The notes beneath the pieces were generated by a model. It was not told where the DNA came from, did not search any database, and worked only from the letters and a program-made list of their open reading frames with translations. Shown here piece after piece: positions 841 to 14,767 of a stretch of 34,860 bases of DNA. The position numbers and the translations under genes were made by a program. Origin of the DNA: a virus; the IMG/VR virus record IMGVR_UViG_3300030117_004344, positions 1 to 34,860 of that record; one strand, given 5' to 3'. The stretch's first letter is position 1. Every line of letters starts with the position of its first letter.

Positions 841-2874
841 TTAAGTTGCTGCTACTGTTACATAGCCACCGTATATTTCTTCACCAGAACCTTGCTCTAC
901 CAGTATAAACAAATAATTAGTTGCACTACTTGTTACATCTGTTATATTTATTTCTGTGCCAATATTACCAGTTCCTTTACTCACGCCAAGTTTGTCACTT
1001 ATTTGATGTTCCCAAACCTCAACCGCTGAGGTACCATTACCGTATATCATAACGTGAGTTGCGTCATATCCAGTTGGTATCGCCACAGTGACAAAACAAG
1101 GTGCTGTACTATTGGTTTCACCAAATAATTTTTCAGCACCAATGCCTGAGTCGTCAATCATATAAGGTCTACCAGTGTCAGATATGATAAAATCACTATG
1201 TAGTATTTTTATTCTAGTAGTTGACCCATGCCAACCACTTACTATATCACTAGTTAAAGCTACGGTTCCAGTAGCATCAGGTAATGTTATCGTTTGTCCA
1301 GAAGTTGCTGCGGGTCCCGCTAGCGTAACCATATCAGATCCATTATCTGTATCTTCAGATAATGATATTCGACCTGATTGTGTAGAAGATCCAGCAACCC
1401 TAATACTATCGCCCTGTAATACGACATCACCAGCGATAGTACATGTAGATTCAACACCGTAACCTAGCGTAGTATTAACTGTATTAGCACTAGCGCTACC
1501 TACGCCAGTTATCATATTTTGTCTAGAGCTTACTGTACCAGTACTAGTAGCACAAGTGTGAATGACCCTAGCAAATTCATCACCAGCAACAACACCCGCG
1601 GCTTGCACATATTGTTCCGCATAATACTTAGCAGTACCACTAGCATTATCACTTATCCAACTAGTAAAACCAATGAGGTCATCAGCGGCAGCTGTTGAGC
1701 TAGCTCTATTTTTTATAAAACTAAAGTTGGTTGGTTTATTACCATCAGCAGTAGCGGTAAGTGTTAAAGCGGCACAACCAGTATTAACTGATGTTAAACC
1801 TAAAGTAGAACCGTCCCATGTTGCTCCAGATTCTGATGTTACTGTTCCATCTCCGTCGTCTGTTAATAATTGATTAGCAGACCCGTCAACCCCAGCTCCA
1901 TGTAAATCAGTTATATTATTTGTGTGTATAACAGAAGATGCACTAACATCTCCTGTCCAATCTATATGTTCATTAGCTACAAAGTTAGCTAACGAATCAT
2001 GATCAATAATGCCTTGCGTCGCAACTTGTATAACACCTGAGCTGTTTATAGTGGATGTTACACCCATAGTTAATGATCCAGCTATTGTAACAACTGAAGT
2101 TGAAAGCGTACCCATTGTAACGTCTACCCTTCCATCAGTTGTTGTACCAAGTACAGCTAATCCAGTGGTGAGAGTTCCATCGTACTCAGCAACCTTAAAC
2201 TCTAATTTTCCAGTTTCTGATCCGTGATCTGATTCTATTACATCGCCAATTATTCTTGAATAAATTTGATAATTTCCAGCAGCGTCGGTTCCAGAAAATT
2301 GAACTACCCCAAGTACGTCTCCATCGTTCAAACCATTACTATCTCTATAGTTCGAAAGTTCAAGATAACCGCCAGCGCCGTCGTTAACGTCGTTCCGACA
2401 TTGTATATAAGGACCAGCGGTGCTAGAAGTTAATGAAAGAAGATAAGCATCAGCAGTAATTGCCTGCGAGGCTGGATCAAGGACTATATTACCATCTGGT
2501 TGTAAAGTTAAATGAGCCGCTGTAGCATCATCGTCAACCGTAGATATAGTTGTAGCCCCATGTGCAGAAGTTTGTATTAAAAAATAATCATTTGGAGGAT
2601 CTAAATTTGATATTATTGCTAAACTAGAAACGTCGCCAGTATTTTCAAAAGACAAATATGTTTCAGCATTTAGTCCACTTGTGCCAACAGCCGTAACAAC
2701 CCTATTATCAGCTCCATTAGTCATGTTAACCCCTGAGGTTGTATTTTTACTAACTTTACCATTACTGTCTACAACAAGAGCGCTAGTCTCTGTAGTTGTA
2801 GATAGATTTTCTAAATAAACGTCGTTACGGAATCTAGATACAAAATCATATATATGTTGGCTTATCCATTTCAT
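841..2874 (-). CDS. Tail fibre protein (677 aa)
   Basis: A 677-residue protein with the build of a phage tail fibre. The N-terminus MKWISQHIYDFVSRFRNDVY is a short probable attachment helix. A long Ser/Thr/Gly/Asn-rich beta-repetitive body follows, with phrases common in trimeric fibres (VVDSNGKVSKNTTSG; TITLPDATGTVALTSDI near residues 530-550). The C-terminal ~130 residues, from GWHGSTTRIKIL onward, form a more complex beta domain (YDATHVMIYGNGTSAVEVWE, SGEEIYGGYVTVAAT) that resembles a domain frequent in marine phage fibres. It is the likely receptor-binding or adhesin part of the virion. Its ATG overlaps the stop of the 23-residue gene (ATGA). It lies in the gp17 position relative to a T7-type gene order. 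The name rests on composition and context. Confidence 0.85.
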   Translation of the reverse strand: MKWISQHIYDFVSRFRNDVYLENLSTTTETSALVVDSNGKVSKNTTSGVNMTNGADNRVVTAVGTSGLNAETYLSFENTGDVSSLAIISNLDPPNDYFLIQTSAHGATTISTVDDDATAAHLTLQPDGNIVLDPASQAITADAYLLSLTSSTAGPYIQCRNDVNDGAGGYLELSNYRDSNGLNDGDVLGVVQFSGTDAAGNYQIYSRIIGDVIESDHGSETGKLEFKVAEYDGTLTTGLAVLGTTTDGRVDVTMGTLSTSVVTIAGSLTMGVTSTINSSGVIQVATQGIIDHDSLANFVANEHIDWTGDVSASSVIHTNNITDLHGAGVDGSANQLLTDDGDGTVTSESGATWDGSTLGLTSVNTGCAALTLTATADGNKPTNFSFIKNRASSTAAADDLIGFTSWISDNASGTAKYYAEQYVQAAGVVAGDEFARVIHTCATSTGTVSSRQNMITGVGSASANTVNTTLGYGVESTCTIAGDVVLQGDSIRVAGSSTQSGRISLSEDTDNGSDMVTLAGPAATSGQTITLPDATGTVALTSDIVSGWHGSTTRIKILHSDFIISDTGRPYMIDDSGIGAEKLFGETNSTAPCFVTVAIPTGYDATHVMIYGNGTSAVEVWEHQISDKLGVSKGTGNIGTEINITDVTSSATNYLFILVEQGSGEEIYGGYVTVAAT

Positions 2875-2942
2875 TTAATTGTTTTTATTATTCCTGCTGC
2901 TGTAATAACCGCTACAGCTACACAGACTGGGCAGGGACACAT
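2871..2942 (-). CDS. Tiny Cys-rich hydrophobic protein (23 aa)
   Basis: A 23-codon reading frame beginning MCPCPVC, followed by a hydrophobic run (VAVAVITAAGII) and a basic end (KTIK). Its ATG overlaps the stop of the 59-residue gene by one base (TAATG), and its TGA overlaps the fibre ATG (ATGA). That exact stop/start nesting on both sides is the main evidence that it is translated. The three cysteines could bind metal or form disulfides, and the hydrophobic run could sit in or on a membrane, so a lysis-related or virion micro-protein is possible. It might instead serve only to couple translation to the fibre gene. No function can be assigned. Confidence 0.55.
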   Translation of the reverse strand: MCPCPVCVAVAVITAAGIIKTIK

Positions 2943-3121
2943 TATATTTCAAATCCAAAATTAAAGATCATAAATCTAAATCTAGGACATGTGCCTTTGT
3001 TTTTACACTTGAAGCAAGGACAAAACATTATCTCAAACATTGTCCACGTTCCTAATCTAAACGTTAATTCATACACTTCTTTTTTGTTACCTGCTCTCCA
3101 GGAATTTATCCAATTAATCAT
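2942..3121 (-). CDS. Small Cys-containing protein with CPCxxC motif (59 aa)
   Basis: A 59-residue frame starting at the ATG at 3121 (MINWINSWRAGNKKEVYELT) and ending FRFMIFNFGFEI. Four cysteines at residues 34, 36, 39 and 45 (FCPCFKCKNKGTCP) make a compact metal-binding-like cluster flanked by aromatic and hydrophobic residues. It is the first gene after a promoter-like repeat at 3138-3157 and overlaps the 23-residue gene by one base (TAATG). With both neighbours it fills the whole space between the 3868-residue gene and the fibre gene. The cysteine cluster and coupling support a real gene. Its role is unknown; a zinc-binding structural or host-interaction protein is one option. Confidence 0.65.
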   Translation of the reverse strand: MINWINSWRAGNKKEVYELTFRLGTWTMFEIMFCPCFKCKNKGTCPRFRFMIFNFGFEI

Positions 3122-3137
3122 ATTTTTATTATTTTTG

Positions 3138-3157
3138 TTTACTATAATATTATTACA
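3138..3157 (-). promoter_or_regulatory. Promoter-like repeat, copy C (ahead of the fibre block)
   Basis: On the minus strand this reads TGTAATAATATTATAGTAAA, identical at 17 of 20 positions to the element at 16434-16454 and 26275-26295. The -10-like hexamer is TATTAT here against TATAAT in the other two. It lies in the 39-base gap between the giant gene and the 59-residue gene, about 22 bases from the ATG. No clear -35 box is seen. It would drive the 59-residue, 23-residue and fibre genes. Confidence 0.55.
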
Positions 3158-3160
3158 CGT

Positions 3161-6100
3161 TTATTGGTGAGCATAACATTTTTTGTTTGTATTCTCTGTC
3201 TTGTTCTTACATCTCTGGCCATTAGATTTAATAGCTGTACACCTGTATTCTTTCTTGCCATCGCCATCAGTATCGCTACCATCTACAAAATCTCTATGAT
3301 GAGGACACTTCCAAGATTTCTTGCTTGTTTCAGTTGTATTGCCACATCTTTCTCCATTTGATCGTATACCAGAACACCTAACTCTTTTAATGCCTTTCTT
3401 TTTCTTTTCTTCTTCTTCTTTCTTTTTCTCTTCTTCCTTTTTCTTTTTCTCTTCTTTTTTCTTTTCTTCTTTTTTCTTTTTCTTTTCTTCTTTCTTTTCT
3501 TCTCTAACTTCTTCTTTTGCTTCTTCTAACTCTTCATCTTTAACTCCAATATCCCATCTGTTCCAACCCATTACTAACATAATTCTCTGCCATGTCTCAT
3601 GATTACCAGTTATAGCTTCTTCTAAATTATTGGCTTTATTAATAACTCTTGCTAAAGGCAAATTAGTTGCGGCTTCTATAATATTAGCCCATTTTTGTAA
3701 TTCTGGATTTTCAATACTCCAACCTAATTTTTCTCCAACACCTTTATTATATTGTTCAGTTTTAAAAGCATTTATTACTTTTCTAATTTTACTACCTATT
3801 GGTGGAGAAAGATTTATTAACTCAAGCGCTATCTTGCTAGCATCCTGTTGACCGTACCCTTTCTTTTTTTGCATATGCCATTGTAAAATGGTATTTTTAA
3901 GAGTTGACAATAAAGCCCCATATAAACCAGTACCACGTAAAAATGAATCCAAAGCTTGATTTAATGTTCTAGTTGTTCTATCTTCAATTTCTTCTTCATC
4001 GTCTCCCCACATTATAGCTGCCAATGCTGTTTGTAAAGAAGCAAATATAATATTTTGAGCAACCGCATAATAAACTATTTTTGATACATTAGTTTTCCAA
4101 TCACCTCTACCATTAACTAAATCTGATAAAGACTTCTTAGTTAACCTACCCATCTGCATTGTAACGTTCTGAAACGCTAAAACCATTCTACCAAGAACGC
4201 TAGCTTGTTGTTGTGATACTAAATCTTCTCTTGATGACTGTTGCGTTTCTTCTGAAATCTCTTGAAAATCTAACATAGCTTGTTCTTGAGCCTGCTTGTC
4301 AGACATCCCTTCTTTTTTATATTTATTAAATCTATTTCTAAAGAAACTAGCACCACCAAAAGCAATAGCAAAACTATCTGCAATTTGCGTTGGCGTAAAA
4401 CCTTTTGATAACAAATAATTAATTACAGCTCTCGGCGTGCCCTTCCCTTCAGCAAATGATTTAGTTAATTCTGAAGCTGACACATCAGTTTGTAACCCCG
4501 CTCTTCTTTGTTTCAATTGAGGTGAATTAAATAACATAACAAAGTCTTTCCAAAACTGAGGCTGGTTTGCGAATGCAGCAGCAGCTTTAAATGCGTTATT
4601 ATCCGACCAGTTTATGAAGTTAACTGTAGATATAGTTTGAAGTAAAGCAGATCTCATATTAAAAAACATAACAGCTCCAACAGATCCGTTTATCCATTCA
4701 ATAAAACCATTAACTGTTTTATCTGGGCTAACACGTCTATTACCGCCATTTTCCATACGATCTAGTATATTTTCTAAAGCGTCTGCAAAACCATCACCAT
4801 ATGTGGCTCTTATTTTATTTAAATTATCTTTACTAAATATAGTATTTTTTAAATTTATCCATTCTTGTAAAAATTGTTTTCTACTAATTTTACCTGTAAG
4901 ATTATTCATATCACCAGGTATAGAGCTAACTGCCCAATTATCAGTTGGTGCAGGATATCCATCTTTAGAACGAGTTACTAATGACAAACCATCTGCAAAA
5001 GCTCTTAATTCAGGATTGTTAGCAACATGATCTATTAGTTGTCTTTTTTGTGCATTTGATATACCAGGAACATCATGCCCTGCTTTTGCAAATAAATAAA
5101 CTCTTACAGCTGTGTCATTTGTAAACGCTGTTCCAGGAATTACTTTATTTAATGACTTAACAACCTTAGGGAATTTTTTCTTTAACGCCTTGTATTCATC
5201 AACCATGTTTTGCTTATACGCATTCCATGATCTTATACCTTTAGCAAATGGATCGAATAACTTTTCTTTAAACCATTTTAAATCAGCATCACCTTGCTTT
5301 CCTTTACCAACAAAGTAATACATTAATCCTTTAAAATCTTCTGCTGATGGTGGTATATAAAGACTTTTTAAGAATCTAACTATGTTAGGTTGTGATCCTC
5401 TTCTTTTAGCTTCAGCTTCAGATATTATTGTTTCAGAATCAACTCCTTTTTTACGTTCAATCATATCATTGAACTCTTTATCAATTGGGTCTCTTCTATT
5501 AGGATCATTGGGATCAGGTTCAACAACCTTGCTTTGCGAAGCGTTACTCTTATCAACAAATCTATTAGTTTGATCTAGTTTAGCTTGAACAACATCTGAT
5601 TTAATATCTAGTTGATCTAACACTTCTCTTACTGCCTCAACGTTTTGTGTAGCGTCATCAGCAAAATACATATCATTATAACCTTCCGCAAACTTATCTA
5701 GCATCCAATCTGCTTTAGCAGCGCCAGTACTATCAGCTAAACCTGTTATATTTTCTAATGGTATATTTAATCCTTGTGATTTTAAAAATTGTTGAATGGC
5801 TTTAGCTGACTTTTGTGTTCTAGCAGTTAAAACAAATATATCTTTAGTGCCATATTTTTTAGCTCTTTCTAATGCTTTACCAAGTAGTGGCCCAGGTCTA
5901 CCTTCTATAACTTGATCAAATTCTGTAAAATCAAATTTACCACCTTGTTCTAATATAGCGTCTCCTTGCTCAGCAAACTCTGTAGCATCTAGCCTACGTT
6001 TTTCATGACCACTAACAAAATTATCCATTTGGTCAACAAGCTTCTTAGGCATTGGATCACCCATTTCTAAATTGTCTGTTTTAACTTCCATGAATCGATC

Positions 6101-9100
6101 ACCAAACATTTCTTTAAATGCAGACTTATTACCTTGAACGGCTTCGTGATTACGTTTAACGATAACATCTAATAAAGATCTTTCTTTCCTAGCTCTATTT
6201 CTTTCTATAGCTGTATCTAAAGACGTTTCAACAAATACCATACTAACATCATATCCTTTGGCTTCAAACTCAGCAACTAACTTTTGCATTTGCTTTAATG
6301 AACCTCCAGTACCGTCAACTACTACTCCATCACCTTCACCTTGGTACTTCATCATTTTATTTCTAGCAATACCTCTAGCTTGATGACCTAACTTACCTAA
6401 TATGCTTCTTTGCTCTGGTGTTAAATCTCTCATGTCCTCAGGTAGACCATGATTCTTTTTTAACCACTCTAATGATATGTCAGAATTAACTACTTTAAAT
6501 CCATCTTTTTCTAAACCTAGTTTTTTAATAACATTACCTTTACCACTACCGGCTCCACCAGCTAAGAATATAACTTTTCTTTTTGGCTTAGGGGTTCCAT
6601 CAGGATTTGGCATTGTAACTCTAACGCCTGATTTAGTTATACCTAATGTATCATCAAAATCAAATACAGATAAACCTTGAACTTTAATTGGTGGTTTACT
6701 AGACATTTTATTACTAGAATCTTGTTTTTGTTTTTGAAATTTCTGTTCACTTTTTTGTTCAGTAGTTGGATGTAAAATTTCATTTATAGGGCCTTCTAAA
6801 CCTTCAGCTACTTCAACAGCAACAGTTTTACCTGTAGCTGTGTTATAAATATTTTTTTGAAAACCTTTTGCAAATTTAACTAATCTATTAACTCCTTCTA
6901 AATTAACTTTATTATCTACAAATTTATCACCAACTTTAACTTTAGCGTCTAGCGCTTTATCAGTAATAAACTTTGGGCCATAAAATGTTTGATGATTACC
7001 AACTAAACTATTTAAATCCTGATTACCACCTAAAGTATAAACAGCTTTTCTAGCGTGTGTCTCTGCTGACGTAGTTAAATGTTCATTTTTTGGTTTTAAA
7101 AGATTTATAACTTTATCATTAAATTTATCACTGTTAACATCTAATTTTGGATTTTCTTTTTTAACTATATCTCTAGCTATTTTCCAGTCAGCTGTTTCTT
7201 TCCAAGAGTCGACATAAGCTTCATACTCTGCTTTATATTCAGGCGTATTTGTTCTATCTTTTTTATTTATAGATCTTTTTGGAGGTTTGCCTCCTAATTG
7301 AGGACCATCTGATAAATATACATAACTTAATGTGCTAAGCGCTCTAGTTCCTCCTACAATATTTGTTTGGAATTGATTTAAGTTAATTACGTTTTCTTTA
7401 CTTATTTTTCCTTTGTCAAATAATTGTTTTTGCTTACCAGCAATATACTTATGTAGTGCTTTATTTGCAAAATTTATTTTTTCAATTTTAGCTTTTTCTT
7501 GAGTCAGTATATCTAATTTTTCTTTTATTGAAGGAGCATTCCATAAACGCTCCATGGTCTTCTTAATTTCACCTTTCCACTCCATCATAGCAAAGTCACC
7601 GTTCTCAATAGCTGTTATTTCAGCATCAGTCATGCCTAGCTTATCTTTCATAAATCTTCTTTCAGACTTAATAGTAGCTTTACGTGGAATATTTTTATTA
7701 AGATAAGTTGGATGCAGCGTTCTAGTTGATGTAGCTGGCAATCCATTGATATATACTATTTTACCGTTTACTTTTAATAGCCCAGAATCTTTAACACCCA
7801 TAACGCCAAGCCCAAAAGCTTCTTTAATAACTGGATGTAGATTTTCTATAAATATTTCTGTTGATCTGGTAAGGCCAAGTAACCCTTTATTAGGAATACC
7901 TTTATCAGAATACCCTTCTACTTTGGTGAATTTATCAACTACGTTTCTAAACTTATCACCCTTTTTAGTTGCTTGAAACATTTTTGCTATATCTTTATCA
8001 TTAGCAAAAAATTTCATTACAAATTCATTGTATCCACCAGGTCCTTGCAAAAAGTTTTGTAATGCTTGATCTCTTAACATATTAGCAAGTAGTTCTGCAT
8101 TTTCTGGAGATACACCATAATCTTTTATAAGTTCATCTATAAGAAGATCTGTATCACCAGTACCATGTGATTCTACGATTCTTTTAAGCGCTTTTGCTAA
8201 ATCAGGAGTTTTTGGAGCTTTACTATATAATCCTTGCGATAAACCATCAGTTAATCTATTATTAGCGTTACCATTGCTTGTTAATTCAGTTACCGTTAAT
8301 GTTGTTGCTATTTGAATAACTAATTGTCTCAGCGCTCCATCAAAGTCCGTCGTGTTTCCTTTAAGTCCAGTTTTTTCAAAAGTTCCGTCAGGGTTGATTC
8401 CAAACATGTCTAAAAATTCTGTTTGTGAAACATCAGTTCTTTTCATTTGTAAAGGCAAACCAGCTCCAGTTGCACCTTTACTCATTCTAGCTCTTTCTCC
8501 TTTAGTATAAAATTGTCCTAGTACAGTATCAGCAATACCTGTTGCTCTACCACTTCTATCTTGACCATCTGGCAGTAAATGAAATAATATATCATTAAAG
8601 CTACCGTCTGGATTAATTGACATGTTTTTAATCCAATTTCTAACTTTATTTCTTTGAAGTTCGTTTAAATTTTGATTTGCTAGTAATCTAAGTGGATCAA
8701 CACCTATTTCATTAGCAAAAGCTTCTAAGATAGGATACAATGAGCCAGTTGGATTAACGTCACTAGCTTTAGTAGGATTTACTAGCTTTCCTTTTTTATT
8801 TTTTACTTTTGGTTTTTCAGTTAAATTTTGATTAACACTTTTGTAATTTAAGTTTTGATCACTATAATCAGTTGTTTTTACTGTATTTTCTAATACCTTT
8901 CTAGCTTTACTTTTTTTATTTTTTTGAATAGGAAGTACAGCATCTTTTACTTTAATGCCAGAAATTTCAGTGTCTGTTTCTGAAGTAAGTTTTATTTCTT
9001 GATTATTAAATTTATCTATTGTTTGTTGATTTACGTCTCCCTCTATAATATCAGCTATAGTACCCGTCTCACTTATTTGTCTCTCTGTTGAAACAACAGT

Positions 9101-12100
9101 TCCTCTTCCACCTGGATTATCTTTTTTCCATTGGGCCATCACGTCACCCCTTGCTCTATATACAACAGATTTACCTTGGCCACCAGCCACACCTGTTAAC
9201 CAACCAAATAAACTACCATTAGCTTCCGTTGGATCAAATCCTTTCTTATTGTTGTCAGGATTGTTTTTAATTTTATTTATTCTCTCTGCAGCCTCTTTAG
9301 CTGTTATTTCACCTTTAGCTCTTTGCTCTTTTATTGCATCAATTTTATCTCTAGCATTTTTTGTTAGTCCACCTAAATATCTTTCTGATATGAGATATAA
9401 AGTTTTTCTAACAAAGTCATTCATTTCTTGCTCTGTGTTAATACCTGTTTCTGCTGCTACCCCTGATTCTATTAATTTTCTTAAAGGCACTGAATTCATT
9501 ATTTCCTTAAAGCCATCCCAAAAATCGTCAGACATTTGAAAATCTTCTTTTGAATTATACTTAGGTTTACCATCTGGACCTAGCGTATATTTGTCAAAAT
9601 CAGGCCTCCAATTAGAGTTTTTATTTATAATATTTTTTAAACTCTTGTTAAACATAGCTTGATTTTTTATTTCAGCAGGTGTTCTAGCGTCTTTAAATAT
9701 TTTACCATTAGCTCCTTTAGCTAACATTTTAGCTATAGCTGGATTTACTTTATTATTTTTAATAGACTTATGGTAGTCTATCATAAAGTTTCTAATATCA
9801 TTTACATTATCAAATTTTATTTCAGCTCCAAGATGATGTTGAGCAAATCTTCTCCATACTCCAGCTAACTTTTGCAATGCTGATTCTTTAATTTTTAAAG
9901 TACCATCAAATTGCATTTCAGAAGCGATAGCCATTTTTTCTTCACCTCTTTGATCTGGAGGATATTGATTGATTCTATTATTAAAATGTCTACGCGCTGC
10001 ATCAGACATTTCTATATTGTCACCATCTAATATAGCGTCAACTTGAGCGCCTAATATTTTTCTCATAGCTGGATCAGCTTTTAAAGTCTGACGCCATGTG
10101 GCGTGTATAAACTCATGAGCGGGTGTATTAAACATTCCGTTTTTCATAACCGCATCTCTATTAATGGCTATATCCATACCAATTATTCTACCATCAGAGG
10201 AAAATTGTGGTTGCATAACTCCAGCATCACTACTTTTCAATATATTGTTAGCTATATTAACTTGTTTATCAGCATCTTTAAGTAATTCTTTAGCGGCTCT
10301 TATTTCTTGTGGTGTAGAATCTGGGTCATTTATTACCTCATTAAGACCTTCTACCATTCCCTCAAAATGACTAGCGGTGTCCTCAACTCTCTTACTTGAC
10401 ATGCCTTGTTCTTTTGATTCGTATTTTTTTACACGCTCTTGGAAATTTTCTTGGTTTTCAACGTGTAGTCTAGTTGGCACACCTCCATATTTTTTAGCTA
10501 AATCAGCCGTTGCTTGTAGTGTTTGAACTTGATCTCTATAATTTTCATCAACAAGATTCTTAGGATATTTACTTATTATAGCTTCTTTACGACTTTCTCT
10601 ACTTTCTATTTTTTGATTTATCTCATTTATTTGTTTAGTTCTTTCTTCTTTTGATAAATCTTTATTTGCTTTTATTTCACGTATTTTTTGTCTGTCTGCA
10701 TTATTTCTTTTTTCTATTTCAATTAAGGTATTTTTTTCTGTAGGATGCAATAAGTCAACTCTTTTAATATCTGTTTCTATTAACTTACCACTAAGGTCAG
10801 CATATTCAGCTAGTTCAGTTTCTAACTGTTCTAATTTTTTTATATCTTGAGGATTTTTAGAATCTTTCAACGCATCCATTTCTGTTGAAATTCTATTCAT
10901 TTCTACATTAACTCGTCTTAATTGATCTTTTGTTGTATTAGATGTAAATGGGGCTGTTGCTAAAACAGCAACTCTAGGTGATTGTAGTGTTCCAGCTAGA
11001 AAAACACCATCAACAAATGCTCTATCCATATTGTCAAAAATACCAACATCTTTTCGGCCAGATATAACTATGTCAGCGGCATTTTCTGCAAACGATGTTA
11101 GCGCTTCTGAAAATCCTTCTGTAAACCATTCTTTTCCTGCTGAAAAAGTTCCACTAGCTAAATTTCTAAGACTAAATGGAGATGCTAGTATATTTTTTAC
11201 ACTAGGAGTAAATAATTTTGAACCTCCTAACATTTTTATTGTTTTACCTCCAATTTTAGCAGTGTAAGTTTCAAAAAGAGCTTCAGCGCCACCTGTTATA
11301 ATAGAATTAGCAACCATACTACCAACAGTATGATTATACCCATATAGACCACCGGTTCTATAATACGTGTCCTTCTGATCCTGCATACTATAGTATTTAT
11401 TAGTAGCAGAGCTTGTACCTATAACAAACATACCAGCCCCAGCACCACCAGTAAGAACAGAACTAACAGCTAAAGTCGCTAAAATAGGCGCTTGCGTAAT
11501 AAGCATTTGAGCTGTGTAATCCCCAGCCTTTCCTTGTATTCTAGCTTCTCTCATTGTTAATGGATCATTAAGAACATCACTAAGATATTTATCTCTTTTT
11601 TCATCTTTTAATGGCCCAGGGAGAAAAAAATCTCGAGACGCTTTTTCAAGCGAAAGAAGAGTATGATTTGAGAGAAAATGATCTTCAAGAACTTTCCCTG
11701 CTTGATGTTCGTTTAAACCATAACCTATTGCTGATAAATTTGTTATATCTAAATTTTCAGAAAGACGCTTGTCAAGATCCGCTATTGTTTTAATAGAAGC
11801 GCGAGAAGTTGTAATCTTTTCATTTAAAAGATCAAACTCTTTAACTAGTTCTCCATCTGTTTTGCCAGTCTTTTCTAAAATTTCTTTATTATATCCATCT
11901 ATATTTTTTTGATTGTTTTTTTGTATACTATTTACTTTTTTATTATATATATCTCTATTCTTTTGCTGTTCATTAATATAGCTAGTAACCTTATTGTTAT
12001 AATTATCAATTTCTTTTTGGTATACGTTTTGATATTCATTAATTTCTTTTTGGGCTAAAGTAGCATCTTGCTGCATGTTTTGAACATAAGATTCCCATTG

Positions 12101-14767
12101 AGCTTGCCCAACTTGAGGTGATAGTTCCCCGCTTTTAACTTTTTGTTGTATATCTTTAAAAGCATTATTTATATCATCTTCTGAAGGAAGATTATATTTA
12201 GTATTTATTTCCTCAATTCCTTTATGATATTCTTCTTCAGTTCTTATTTCATTTTTCCAAGTCTCTATTTTTTTATCAGACTCTTCGTCAGTATCAATAC
12301 TTAATTTTGTTTTTAAAGTGTCTAGTTCTTTTTTTAATTGTTTGTTGGTTTTTATATTATTATTTTTGGATGCCTCCTCTCTTATATTTTTTATTACTTT
12401 CTGCCTTTCTGTACTATCATTTATTACAGTTATTTCTTCTTCAAAAAGTTCATTATTAGCAATTTTTTGATCTATAATTTCATTACTTTTTTCAATTGCT
12501 TCGTCTTTAAGAAAAGCATATTCTCCTTCTTCTATTTCTTTTTTATCTTTAGGTAAATATTTTGTAGTGTTTTTAACATGCTCAGCGAATTCATTTTGAG
12601 TTGCCCTTGATATCATGCTTTCTGTGTACGCATCAAAATAACCATCGGCATTACCTTCTTTATTTTTTAATTCAGAAATTGCTTTATTAAATTGTTCTCT
12701 AGTAATTTTGTCATCATTCAAATCTTTTTTTAGCTTAAGTCTTTCTTCCATAAAAAACATAGCACTATTTCTTTCTTTATTATATTCATCTTGAAAATCA
12801 TCTGAATATGTAGAATAGCGCTTGCCAAGATTATCCCATATGAGATTGTCTATTATATCATCTTTTTCACTACTTTGATACTCCGCTTCAGTTAATTCAC
12901 CACTGTCTAACTTCTTTTTTATAAAATTATTTTTTGCATTATTAAAAATAACATCATCAACTTCTAATCCATTAAGATCTGGAAAGCTTGTATATTGAGA
13001 AGTATATCCATGCTCCAATTGGCTAAATGCGGTATCTGATCGATGTTCTCTAATCTTATTTAATTCTTTAACAAGTTGGACTACAACTCTAGAATTTGGC
13101 TTGTGTCCTTCGGCTTTTTTTTGCCTTATTTCTTCTTCTAATTTTTTTATTCTATTTTGCTTATATACATAGCCGTGCATCTGGTCTTCGATTGCATGCT
13201 CAACGTCGTTTAAATAATTTTGACTAATATTATGTGATTTAGTTTCATCAAGCCAATCATTTTTTTTATCTATTACTATTTTTTCAGTAACAGTTTTTTT
13301 CTCTTGTAATCTTTCCTTTTCATCTTTTACCCAAGGTGTTTTATTATCTTGCATCCAATCCGAAATATATTTAGCGGCATCTATTCGGATTCCTTCTGTA
13401 CCTTTGGTCTTAAATGTTGTGCTTGCTCCAGTGGAAGTATTTGTAACTTTAACTCTATTAACACCTATTCCGCCTAATAAAGAATCTTCACCAGTAAGCC
13501 AATTATAATCATCAATCTCAAATACAAAATCATTAACACCATCACCGTTTGTGTCGTAGTTATACTTCTCGTTAAGTAACTTCGTCGCTTTTCCATCAGA
13601 TTGCTTTAAAATGTAATCCCAATTTAATTCTGGATTCTCATGGTTATACGCATGGCTTTTGTTAAATGCATCATTAATTTTTTCTTCTTGTTCTTTACGT
13701 TTAGCAGTATAAGCAGGATTGTCTATTTTGGATACTTTATAACCATTAGCTAACATTTCGTCATGAGTCATCGGCTTATTAGTATCTTTATTCATTACCT
13801 TAGTAACGCGCTTGCCGCTAGGATCAATATATACTTGTTGACCATTACGTGTTTTTTCGTCTACTTGGTCAACACCTATTTCATCATAATCTCTATCTGG
13901 ATTGTATATATGGTCTTTATTAACCCATTTGTTCATAGAATTATTATATACTTCATTTCCTCCATCTCTGTAACCAAACATCTGTGCGTCTATCTCACCC
14001 ATGCTTTCTGCAGCTTTACGTTGCGCAGGGTGCACGTATCCACCTTGCCCCTGTGTTATATGATCTAGAAATTTATTTTCAAAATAATCTTTAGAGAACT
14101 TATAATTATTTTTTTTATGTTGTTCAAGACGAAGATTTTTTAAGTCAAAAGGCTTAAGAAGATTTTTATGAGCGATGCTAGATTCATCCGGTTTTTTAAT
14201 TTTAAAACCACTTTTTTCCATTGCTTCTTCTTGACTGTAACCTTTGGTTATTAATTCTTCAAAAAGCTTCATATTACCTTTTTCAGGAACTTCGTTTTTT
14301 GAACTTGGTAAATCTTTTTTATCTACTTCTTCTATATTAATATTTAAATCTTTTGTCTCTTCTAAAAATGCGTCTACTTTATCGATTGGGATTTCTTGTA
14401 ATTCTTTCCCATTAGGAAATTTTCCACCACCAACTATTTTAAATTTTTTAGTATTACTTTTTGGAATAGGTAATTCCGAAGAAGATTCTTCCGATTTGGA
14501 TTCCGTATCTGTTTGTTGATTTTTTTGAGACAGGTCTGTCTTCTTGATTTGCTCGTTCGGCTGCAAGTTTAGTTTCTTGCTTACTTCTAAGGCCTTGGAG
14601 CCTGGCAGCTTTCCCGGCGTTGCAGGAGTATAATTGACAAGCTTGCCATACATATTATAAATTTTTTTATCTTTGTGTTCAGCGAAAAAATTATCTTTTT
14701 CACTTTCTGACATTTTGTACGCTTGACGATTTTTACCGTCGTCTACTATGTAAAGTTTTTTTTCCAT
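3161..14767 (-). CDS. Giant multidomain internal/ejected virion protein (polyvalent type, 3868 aa)
   Basis: One uninterrupted 3868-residue frame taking a third of the window. Visible in order: two short related N-terminal units (about 5-33 and 108-138); a calcium-loop-like DTNGDGVND near 403; long charged coiled coils (about 500-1080 and 1290-1440); a Gly/Ala-rich hydrophobic stretch (about 1085-1280); an HExxH metallopeptidase-like site (1551-1555); a large unrecognised region (about 1650-2650); a HAD phosphatase (D2703 to D3038) interrupted by a P-loop kinase (about 2730-2865); an alpha-helical module (about 3290-3700) resembling C-terminal domains of giant phage polyvalent proteins; a Lys/Glu helix; and two zinc-knuckle-like repeats (3798-3867). 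It starts 10 bases after the 306-residue gene, in the position of T7 gp16. I infer packaging in the head and injection with the DNA, carrying enzymes that act early in the host. No RNA polymerase motif was recognised. Confidence 0.85.
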   Translation of the reverse strand: MEKKLYIVDDGKNRQAYKMSESEKDNFFAEHKDKKIYNMYGKLVNYTPATPGKLPGSKALEVSKKLNLQPNEQIKKTDLSQKNQQTDTESKSEESSSELPIPKSNTKKFKIVGGGKFPNGKELQEIPIDKVDAFLEETKDLNINIEEVDKKDLPSSKNEVPEKGNMKLFEELITKGYSQEEAMEKSGFKIKKPDESSIAHKNLLKPFDLKNLRLEQHKKNNYKFSKDYFENKFLDHITQGQGGYVHPAQRKAAESMGEIDAQMFGYRDGGNEVYNNSMNKWVNKDHIYNPDRDYDEIGVDQVDEKTRNGQQVYIDPSGKRVTKVMNKDTNKPMTHDEMLANGYKVSKIDNPAYTAKRKEQEEKINDAFNKSHAYNHENPELNWDYILKQSDGKATKLLNEKYNYDTNGDGVNDFVFEIDDYNWLTGEDSLLGGIGVNRVKVTNTSTGASTTFKTKGTEGIRIDAAKYISDWMQDNKTPWVKDEKERLQEKKTVTEKIVIDKKNDWLDETKSHNISQNYLNDVEHAIEDQMHGYVYKQNRIKKLEEEIRQKKAEGHKPNSRVVVQLVKELNKIREHRSDTAFSQLEHGYTSQYTSFPDLNGLEVDDVIFNNAKNNFIKKKLDSGELTEAEYQSSEKDDIIDNLIWDNLGKRYSTYSDDFQDEYNKERNSAMFFMEERLKLKKDLNDDKITREQFNKAISELKNKEGNADGYFDAYTESMISRATQNEFAEHVKNTTKYLPKDKKEIEEGEYAFLKDEAIEKSNEIIDQKIANNELFEEEITVINDSTERQKVIKNIREEASKNNNIKTNKQLKKELDTLKTKLSIDTDEESDKKIETWKNEIRTEEEYHKGIEEINTKYNLPSEDDINNAFKDIQQKVKSGELSPQVGQAQWESYVQNMQQDATLAQKEINEYQNVYQKEIDNYNNKVTSYINEQQKNRDIYNKKVNSIQKNNQKNIDGYNKEILEKTGKTDGELVKEFDLLNEKITTSRASIKTIADLDKRLSENLDITNLSAIGYGLNEHQAGKVLEDHFLSNHTLLSLEKASRDFFLPGPLKDEKRDKYLSDVLNDPLTMREARIQGKAGDYTAQMLITQAPILATLAVSSVLTGGAGAGMFVIGTSSATNKYYSMQDQKDTYYRTGGLYGYNHTVGSMVANSIITGGAEALFETYTAKIGGKTIKMLGGSKLFTPSVKNILASPFSLRNLASGTFSAGKEWFTEGFSEALTSFAENAADIVISGRKDVGIFDNMDRAFVDGVFLAGTLQSPRVAVLATAPFTSNTTKDQLRRVNVEMNRISTEMDALKDSKNPQDIKKLEQLETELAEYADLSGKLIETDIKRVDLLHPTEKNTLIEIEKRNNADRQKIREIKANKDLSKEERTKQINEINQKIESRESRKEAIISKYPKNLVDENYRDQVQTLQATADLAKKYGGVPTRLHVENQENFQERVKKYESKEQGMSSKRVEDTASHFEGMVEGLNEVINDPDSTPQEIRAAKELLKDADKQVNIANNILKSSDAGVMQPQFSSDGRIIGMDIAINRDAVMKNGMFNTPAHEFIHATWRQTLKADPAMRKILGAQVDAILDGDNIEMSDAARRHFNNRINQYPPDQRGEEKMAIASEMQFDGTLKIKESALQKLAGVWRRFAQHHLGAEIKFDNVNDIRNFMIDYHKSIKNNKVNPAIAKMLAKGANGKIFKDARTPAEIKNQAMFNKSLKNIINKNSNWRPDFDKYTLGPDGKPKYNSKEDFQMSDDFWDGFKEIMNSVPLRKLIESGVAAETGINTEQEMNDFVRKTLYLISERYLGGLTKNARDKIDAIKEQRAKGEITAKEAAERINKIKNNPDNNKKGFDPTEANGSLFGWLTGVAGGQGKSVVYRARGDVMAQWKKDNPGGRGTVVSTERQISETGTIADIIEGDVNQQTIDKFNNQEIKLTSETDTEISGIKVKDAVLPIQKNKKSKARKVLENTVKTTDYSDQNLNYKSVNQNLTEKPKVKNKKGKLVNPTKASDVNPTGSLYPILEAFANEIGVDPLRLLANQNLNELQRNKVRNWIKNMSINPDGSFNDILFHLLPDGQDRSGRATGIADTVLGQFYTKGERARMSKGATGAGLPLQMKRTDVSQTEFLDMFGINPDGTFEKTGLKGNTTDFDGALRQLVIQIATTLTVTELTSNGNANNRLTDGLSQGLYSKAPKTPDLAKALKRIVESHGTGDTDLLIDELIKDYGVSPENAELLANMLRDQALQNFLQGPGGYNEFVMKFFANDKDIAKMFQATKKGDKFRNVVDKFTKVEGYSDKGIPNKGLLGLTRSTEIFIENLHPVIKEAFGLGVMGVKDSGLLKVNGKIVYINGLPATSTRTLHPTYLNKNIPRKATIKSERRFMKDKLGMTDAEITAIENGDFAMMEWKGEIKKTMERLWNAPSIKEKLDILTQEKAKIEKINFANKALHKYIAGKQKQLFDKGKISKENVINLNQFQTNIVGGTRALSTLSYVYLSDGPQLGGKPPKRSINKKDRTNTPEYKAEYEAYVDSWKETADWKIARDIVKKENPKLDVNSDKFNDKVINLLKPKNEHLTTSAETHARKAVYTLGGNQDLNSLVGNHQTFYGPKFITDKALDAKVKVGDKFVDNKVNLEGVNRLVKFAKGFQKNIYNTATGKTVAVEVAEGLEGPINEILHPTTEQKSEQKFQKQKQDSSNKMSSKPPIKVQGLSVFDFDDTLGITKSGVRVTMPNPDGTPKPKRKVIFLAGGAGSGKGNVIKKLGLEKDGFKVVNSDISLEWLKKNHGLPEDMRDLTPEQRSILGKLGHQARGIARNKMMKYQGEGDGVVVDGTGGSLKQMQKLVAEFEAKGYDVSMVFVETSLDTAIERNRARKERSLLDVIVKRNHEAVQGNKSAFKEMFGDRFMEVKTDNLEMGDPMPKKLVDQMDNFVSGHEKRRLDATEFAEQGDAILEQGGKFDFTEFDQVIEGRPGPLLGKALERAKKYGTKDIFVLTARTQKSAKAIQQFLKSQGLNIPLENITGLADSTGAAKADWMLDKFAEGYNDMYFADDATQNVEAVREVLDQLDIKSDVVQAKLDQTNRFVDKSNASQSKVVEPDPNDPNRRDPIDKEFNDMIERKKGVDSETIISEAEAKRRGSQPNIVRFLKSLYIPPSAEDFKGLMYYFVGKGKQGDADLKWFKEKLFDPFAKGIRSWNAYKQNMVDEYKALKKKFPKVVKSLNKVIPGTAFTNDTAVRVYLFAKAGHDVPGISNAQKRQLIDHVANNPELRAFADGLSLVTRSKDGYPAPTDNWAVSSIPGDMNNLTGKISRKQFLQEWINLKNTIFSKDNLNKIRATYGDGFADALENILDRMENGGNRRVSPDKTVNGFIEWINGSVGAVMFFNMRSALLQTISTVNFINWSDNNAFKAAAAFANQPQFWKDFVMLFNSPQLKQRRAGLQTDVSASELTKSFAEGKGTPRAVINYLLSKGFTPTQIADSFAIAFGGASFFRNRFNKYKKEGMSDKQAQEQAMLDFQEISEETQQSSREDLVSQQQASVLGRMVLAFQNVTMQMGRLTKKSLSDLVNGRGDWKTNVSKIVYYAVAQNIIFASLQTALAAIMWGDDEEEIEDRTTRTLNQALDSFLRGTGLYGALLSTLKNTILQWHMQKKKGYGQQDASKIALELINLSPPIGSKIRKVINAFKTEQYNKGVGEKLGWSIENPELQKWANIIEAATNLPLARVINKANNLEEAITGNHETWQRIMLVMGWNRWDIGVKDEELEEAKEEVREEKKEEKKKKKEEKKKEEKKKKEEEKKKEEEEKKKKGIKRVRCSGIRSNGERCGNTTETSKKSWKCPHHRDFVDGSDTDGDGKKEYRCTAIKSNGQRCKNKTENTNKKCYAHQ
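3167..3376 (-). other. Tandem C-terminal zinc-knuckle-like repeats in the giant protein
   Basis: Two copies of a Cys-x9-Cys ... Cys-x2-His pattern end the giant protein. The first uses C3798, C3808, C3821 and H3824, the second C3843, C3853, C3864 and H3867. Both share the core R-C-x-x-I-x-S-N-G-x-R-C-x-N-x-T-E. Between them sits an acidic loop (DTDGDG, from 3832). The spacing and ligands fit a small zinc-binding module resembling, from memory, DUF5763-type phage domains. Nucleic-acid or protein binding is plausible. Confidence 0.6.
3393..3505. repeat. 113-base uninterrupted pyrimidine tract (purine on the coding strand)
   Basis: Every base from 3393 to 3505 on the plus strand is C or T. On the coding strand it encodes a Lys/Glu run, about residues 3755-3792 of the giant protein, that probably forms a highly charged single helix linking the C-terminal module to the zinc repeats. 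The near-repeated units of AAGAAGAAA type make it prone to length change by slippage. Confidence 0.85.
5654..6661 (-). other. HAD phosphatase domain with inserted P-loop kinase (within the giant protein)
   Basis: HAD motif I is DFDDT at 2703-2707 (nucleophile D2703, acid D2705). The next HAD motifs appear only ~270 residues later: LTAR with T2981, and the acidic ADD at 3036-3038. Between them lies a P-loop kinase: GGAGSGKG at 2737-2744 (K2743), a catalytic-type NSD with D2763, VVVDGTGG with D2818, and a lid-like Arg cluster (R2856, R2858, R2860, R2863). The kinase part looks like the polynucleotide kinase/zeta-toxin group. The pair recalls 5'-kinase/3'-phosphatase end-repair enzymes, but here one domain is inserted in the other. 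Confidence 0.65.
10103..10117 (-). other. HExxH metallopeptidase-like site (within the giant protein)
   Basis: Residues 1551-1555 read HEFIH in the context NTPAHEFIHATW, preceded by a beta-strand-like segment (IGMDIAINRDAV). Downstream, RGEEKMAIASEM (1607-1618) supplies glutamates (E1609, E1610, E1617) that could be the third zinc ligand, as in gluzincins. Zinc peptidase domains are known in giant phage polyvalent proteins. A role in head maturation, self-cleavage or attack on host proteins or peptidoglycan peptides is possible. Confidence 0.55.

Follow-up and report, generated by a model that had tools for sequence, protein, structure and literature searches.

Two very small frames that lie end to end on a virus contig are real, protein-coding phage genes, a conclusion that is strongly supported for both. 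ORF1 (59 aa) is conserved in many uncultured phages, and ORF2 (23 aa) is best read as a gene that is independent of, and mobile relative to, ORF1. We tentatively favor, at somewhat less than an even chance, a reading of two separate late genes in coupled translation, in which ORF1 would be a core virion or assembly protein with an optional Cys loop and ORF2 an independent single-span micropeptide that acts on the envelope.

RESULTS

The Two Frames and Their Surroundings

The window, i.e., the whole stretch of 34,860 nucleotides that was analyzed, belongs to a virus contig of 48,509 bases, with base 1 of the contig as base 1 of the window. In PHROGs its head genes hit families of portal, terminase and structural proteins. 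By one structural protein the closest isolated relatives are Flavobacterium (elemo), Cellulophaga and Maribacter (Panino) phages (85 records, all below 60% identity, and 32-35% among the matches listed), and because of these nearest isolates we infer that the host is a member of the Bacteroidota. The genes run on the minus strand in the order giant gene, 39 nt gap, ORF1, ORF2 and fibre-like gene:

3161..14767 (14767-3161), minus strand: giant gene of 3868 aa, upstream of ORF1, with its C terminus as the conserved left border of the site
3122..3160, minus strand: A+T-rich gap of 39 nt ahead of ORF1, with no promoter-like match in a sigma-70 scan
2942..3121 (3121-2942), minus strand: ORF1, 59 aa, a core small protein of the phage group, MINWINSW...FCPCFKC...FRFMIFNFGFEI; under purifying selection, with 211 relatives from viruses; next after the giant gene in 19/23 loci chosen blind to ORF1
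2987..3022, minus strand: ORF1 Cys loop, residues C34-C45, CPCxxCx5C, a putative metal-binding loop; absent from 10/95 distinct relatives
2871..2942 (2942-2871), minus strand: ORF2, 23 aa, MCPCPVC followed by a hydrophobic run and a Lys tail, a micropeptide family by pattern hits and pN/pS
2922..2939, minus strand: CPCPVC signature, ORF2 residues 2-7; varied codons across 57 distinct DNA sequences
841..2874 (2874-841), minus strand: fibre-like gene of 677 aa (MKWISQHIYDFVSRFR...), next after ORF2, its start overlapping the ORF2 stop (ATGA); no Pfam or PHROG match

Both frames had been marked by a first-pass annotation of this DNA, and both are found where it placed them, at 3121..2942 and 2942..2871, with the junctions that it described. 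The last base of the ORF1 TAA is the first base of the ORF2 ATG (TAATG), and the ORF2 TGA overlaps the ATG of the fibre-like gene by four bases (ATGA, 2874-2871). Each protein carries a Cys-Pro-Cys cluster with the same CPCxxC spacing, FCPCFKC in ORF1 and MCPCPVC in ORF2, and in ORF2 the predicted hydrophobic run follows. Other parts of that description fared less well. The name of fibre gene suits the position and look of the downstream frame but finds no match in Pfam or PHROGs. A promoter-like element had been placed in front of the frames; a scan of 2700-3500 for sites of the sigma-70 type gave 5 sites, where shuffled sequence gave 3.0 ± 1.5, and ahead of ORF1 the minus strand had none. 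The statement that length cut-offs in gene callers would miss both frames can apply at most to ORF2, as the default minimum of Prodigal is 90 nt and ORF1 has 180 nt.

At the C-terminal end of the giant protein (window 3161-3450, minus strand) two Cys/His repeats of the type RCxxxxxNGxRCxN...CxxH can be seen by eye.

ORF1 Is Conserved behind the Giant Gene

In IMG/VR, relatives of ORF1 were confirmed by a single-sequence scan (98) and by a profile scan (211); 80 of the 98 loci were kept, and 80 of the 211, 21 of them new. The 124 stretches of GTDB genome contigs that matched the pattern yielded no confirmed relative, and in the collections searched the family is seen only in phage contigs. ORF1 has no match in PHROGs or NCBIfam and is, as judged by these libraries, a new family. 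For isolated phages, tblastn against 50,697 phage records gave no significant match for one loop-less ORF1 query, nor for two ORF2 queries (none for one, and a non-significant E = 3 to a Bacillus phage for the other).

The 80 loci aligned with the window (81 sequences) gave a pooled pN/pS of 0.254 and a median dN/dS of 0.167 over 1223 pairs. For 73 sequences in equal-length groups, pN/pS was 0.222 in frame compared with 1.369 and 1.770 in the shifted frames. Since the sequences are related and the pairs are not independent, these values are descriptive and are not tests.

To avoid the bias of a search based on ORF1, loci were also chosen using 387 aa of the giant protein alone. ORF1 lies right behind the giant gene in 19 of the 23 loci so picked; it is present in 19/19 at a giant-protein identity of at least 58%, and in 0/4 below 58%. 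Of these 19 loci, 6 have the ORF2 motif next after ORF1, and among the 13 without it one has its ORF1 cut by the contig end. As a core gene upstream of a variable cassette, ORF1 is most likely a virion or assembly protein.

One large viral record (G026, 245,646 bases, the record of L108) holds two copies of ORF1.

The Cys Loop of ORF1

The cysteines were counted in 95 distinct relatives, the window being excluded. CPCxxC with four Cys in all is present in 74 of these and another four-Cys layout in 5. Three Cys are found in 6, of which 2 have CPC, and the remaining 10 have no loop, 9 being free of Cys and 1 having a single Cys outside the loop. The conservation of the cysteines that was looked for thus holds for the majority of ORF1 proteins but not for these 10. 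The set of potential metal ligands is kept as a unit, with four Cys in 79/95 and three in 6/95, and is gone with the loop in 10/95. Where the loop is missing there is a short Cys-free turn instead, and the flanks INSW...NKK and N[FL]GFE are kept. Because the Cys come as a set of three to four or vanish with the whole loop, a structural metal site would explain the pattern more readily than would a catalytic disulfide, and to that extent the earlier suggestion of metal binding survives for ORF1. Small structural zinc loops with four Cys occur as zinc ribbons and knuckles. ORF1 resembles these in having its three to four Cys in one loop and losing them together, and differs in that it has no family match and that its zinc loop is predicted from the Cys pattern.

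We rejected a CxxC thiol-disulfide oxidoreductase of the thioredoxin fold for ORF1: the whole Cys set is missing in 10/95 relatives, and there is no PHROG or NCBIfam match. Two AlphaFold runs, with 67 and 95 rows, gave short strands (pLDDT 51.2) and one long helix (pLDDT 58.4), respectively. As these two low-confidence models contradict each other, we claim no fold.

ORF2 Belongs to a Family of Micropeptides

We searched IMG/VR and GTDB genomes for ORF2 with a degenerate pattern of 21 bases that encodes MCPCP[IVM]C. A hit passed the filter if it encoded a peptide of 20-32 aa that has a hydrophobic run and carries two or more K/R among its final seven residues. From IMG/VR 60 of the 70 pattern stretches passed, whereas from the GTDB genomes, with 119 stretches, 0 of the first 80 passed, the other 39 being read by eye only. 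In the collections searched this family, too, is seen only in phage contigs. Adding earlier loci and the window gives 57 DNA sequences that differ from one another and 47 different peptides of 22-30 aa. Every peptide has CPCP[IVM]C, then a hydrophobic run, and near its end two or more K/R within seven residues, while the choice of codons for the six signature residues varies across the 57 sequences. Because the pattern search itself demanded the MCPCP signature, only the hydrophobic and basic design is independent evidence for ORF2, and the conservation of its cysteines is in part a product of the filter. For 53 sequences pN/pS was 0.404 in frame compared with 0.706 and 1.092 in the shifted frames; in the 20 copies linked to ORF1 it was 0.355. 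The claimed frame is favored over both shifted frames for ORF1 and ORF2 alike, and with in-frame purifying selection and conserved families, beyond what chance gives, both are the genuine genes that the first-pass annotation took them for.

By Pfam, NCBIfam and PHROGs, holin families included, ORF2 has no match, and relative to these libraries it is a new family. In the literature the strings CPCPIC and CPCPVC had no occurrence, and MCPCP occurred in papers unrelated by title.

ORF2, a Cys-rich peptide, is probably embedded in the membrane. Four peptides tested average 1.8-2.4 in hydropathy across residues 1-18, which would make a span only with CPCPxC included. The hydrophobic run from C7 to the first Lys has only about 11-13 residues, and a full span would for this reason need CPCPxC inside the membrane. 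Some variants have MLAI or MLVI ahead of CPCP, and the family therefore does not depend on a free Cys at the N terminus. An outer-membrane lipoprotein has a basic n-region, a hydrophobic h-region and then the lipobox Cys. ORF2 was rejected as such a protein of the o-spanin type, its Cys cluster (residues 2-7) preceding the hydrophobic run and its basic residues being C-terminal.

ORF2 Occurs in Several Genomic Contexts

Among 60 ORF2 loci, 34 have the gene directly after ORF1, 14 have it in a second context in another type of phage, and 12 elsewhere. In the second context ORF2 lies between a gene of 73 aa or 81 aa and one of 190-205 aa. The larger neighbor, tested in one locus (L120), matches a GroES co-chaperonin family (phrog_13932, E 1.7e-15), and by eye the two large genes downstream in that locus are terminase- and portal-like. 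This arrangement resembles that of the Maribacter phage Panino, in which the order is small gene, GroES, terminase and portal. No ORF1 match was found in these 14 records, the longest of which has 70,445 bases and several of which are short fragments, completeness not being given.

Among 50 longer ORF1 records without an adjacent ORF2, 12 carry the ORF2 motif elsewhere, compared with 0 for the reversed pattern. In one contig (L065) ORF2 starts just upstream of ORF1.

Another small gene family, FCA[NS]CKSCP, stands next in the row after ORF1/ORF2 in L052, L062, L063, L092, L114 and L117.

ORF1 and ORF2 Are Unlikely to Act through a Shared Motif

The same unusual motif in two adjacent proteins had suggested a joint function, in which ORF1 and ORF2 would cooperate through CPCxxC by sharing metal, by disulfide exchange or in envelope interaction. 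They are indeed direct neighbors with overlapping codons and equal spacing of the motif in the window, and an ORF beginning MCPCP lies directly behind ORF1 in 19 of the 80 fetched relatives (20/81 with the window). However, the patterns of co-occurrence contradict such a function. Most ORF1 loci have no neighboring ORF2. Among the 10 distinct loop-less ORF1s, 7 are nonetheless followed immediately by ORF2. The 14 records of the second context contain ORF2 with no ORF1 match, and six contigs have the two genes apart, with ORF2 2.3-9.4 kb farther downstream. Cooperation is therefore largely refuted, and we consider it very unlikely. Since loop-less ORF1s keep ORF2, ORF2 occurs where no ORF1 was found and most ORF1s lack an ORF2 neighbor, coincidence is the simplest account of the CPC motif that they share, or else parallel use of a thiol site. 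Adjacency still means that the two are co-translated in those phages where they are neighbors.

Genes of the Late Cassettes

Matches to DUF5675, thioredoxin and SNase occur in the late cassettes, as do Pfam matches to a GTA-holin-like protein that fall below the cut-off of that family. Loci with ORF1 only also carry holin-like, DUF5675 and thioredoxin-like genes. Cassette membership consequently says little that is specific to ORF2, and a lysis role is only one of several options for it.

In L091 (7427-7822) and relatives the cassette includes a protein of the thioredoxin fold with a signal-peptide-like start (Pfam Thioredoxin, 7.8e-08), which by eye has WNxxN where WCxxC is expected. A different recurring feature is the tag M[AG][FY]K[ML]x[GAS][FY] (MAFKMKGF...), which starts 43 of 1884 distinct proteins, mostly Lys-rich and of 40-275 aa, that differ afterwards; these occur in L103, L106, L113, L091, L120 and other viral loci. 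The tag is possibly a docking or packaging signal.

DISCUSSION

In the mechanism that we tentatively favor, the core protein ORF1 would be small and soluble and would serve in the virion or in its assembly. It would be produced jointly with the giant protein and with the product of the first fibre-like gene in the variable cassette. Its loop would be held in most members by a structural metal site of three to four Cys, with a short Cys-free turn in some. ORF2 would be an independent micropeptide with a single pass through the inner membrane. The CPCPxC thiol cluster at its N terminus would lie in the bilayer or immediately beyond it, and may bind Cu(I) or Zn. By the positive-inside rule a basic tail faces the cytoplasm, and the Lys/Arg tail of ORF2 is placed there for this reason. 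Because ORF2 moves within late cassettes together with holin-like, DUF5675 and secreted thioredoxin-like genes, it probably helps to change the host envelope late in infection, as an accessory to lysis or takeover.

Other roles in the envelope have to be weighed against this one. ORF2 could be a lysis peptide of holin or antiholin type that permeabilizes the inner membrane. Its short hydrophobic run and basic tail would suit such a role, and 9 of 24 ORF2-only loci, as well as 7 of 61 loci with both ORF1 and ORF2, contain a GTA-holin-like gene (some loci overlap). Yet that gene is also found in 23 of 78 ORF1-only loci, ORF2 does not replace it where it is present, and one short span is unlike the nearby holin of three transmembrane segments. 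We regard this role as unlikely, and the idea that ORF2 replaces known holins is unsupported. ORF2 might alternatively modify the envelope or exclude superinfection, blocking related phages and being exchanged with the neighboring fibre genes. Its patchy occurrence and varied position in a variable fibre and envelope cassette are consistent with this, but the copies in the second context adjoin a GroES-like gene and not a fibre gene, and we judge this reading unlikely. We give hardly any credence to the proposal that the frames are due to chance, or are leader or spacer frames in which translation matters and the product does not. They are very short and their start and stop codons overlap, as such frames might be; against this, there is in-frame purifying selection when compared with the shifted-frame controls, and the hydrophobic and basic design is kept in 47 distinct peptides, also in the second context with other neighbors. 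For ORF1 this explanation is refuted.

ORF2 can be compared with some known systems. A review of phage small proteins (PMC11323111), which lists Fremin et al. 2022 among its references, deals with short phage-encoded proteins that are easily missed, a trait that ORF1 and ORF2 share; these differ in that neither has a PHROGs or NCBIfam match, nor ORF2 a Pfam match. Copper P1B-type ATPases, as a passage of PMC9433437 describes them, have CPC in membrane helix M4, where two Cys and a Met bind Cu(I). ORF2 shares with them Cys-Pro-Cys and a predicted placement in a membrane helix, a resemblance of a three-residue motif only, whereas it is a lone peptide of 22-30 aa and no ATPase. We rejected it as a metal site of this class on grounds of that length and the lack of a Pfam match.

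A cellular lookalike was present in 6 of the 119 GTDB hits (L181, L190, L247, L266, L282 and L283), all titled as Alphaproteobacteria MAGs. As in ORF2, MCPCP[IV]C at the start is followed by a hydrophobic run of about 11 residues and then by Lys-rich sequence. Unlike ORF2, these proteins are cellular, have 48-143 aa with an added Cys/His tail, and lie in a neighborhood of the order SSB, gyrA, ..., cyclophilin-like (resemblances seen by eye at several loci); the likeness is one of sequence layout. A search with one of them gave one match in each of the six genomes. In L282/G079 the match runs through two TGA codons, perhaps in a recoded genome. One speculation, which we think quite unlikely, is that CPCPxC with one short span is a minimal portable intramembrane thiol or metal unit, standing alone in a phage micropeptide that would disturb metal handling or redox in the inner membrane of the host; some Alphaproteobacteria would have it joined to a Cys/His tail, close to gyrA.

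At 23 codons, ORF2 is a frame of the kind that would normally be discarded, yet it represents a conserved family of phage genes. The family occurs in different phage backbones, and its sharp signature is specific enough to be used for annotation across metagenomes. In ORF1 nature has run an experiment of its own, the gain or loss of a putative metal loop in a protein that is otherwise conserved. ORF2, a small synthetic target, makes it possible to ask if single-span peptides affect bacterial membranes through their thiol clusters.
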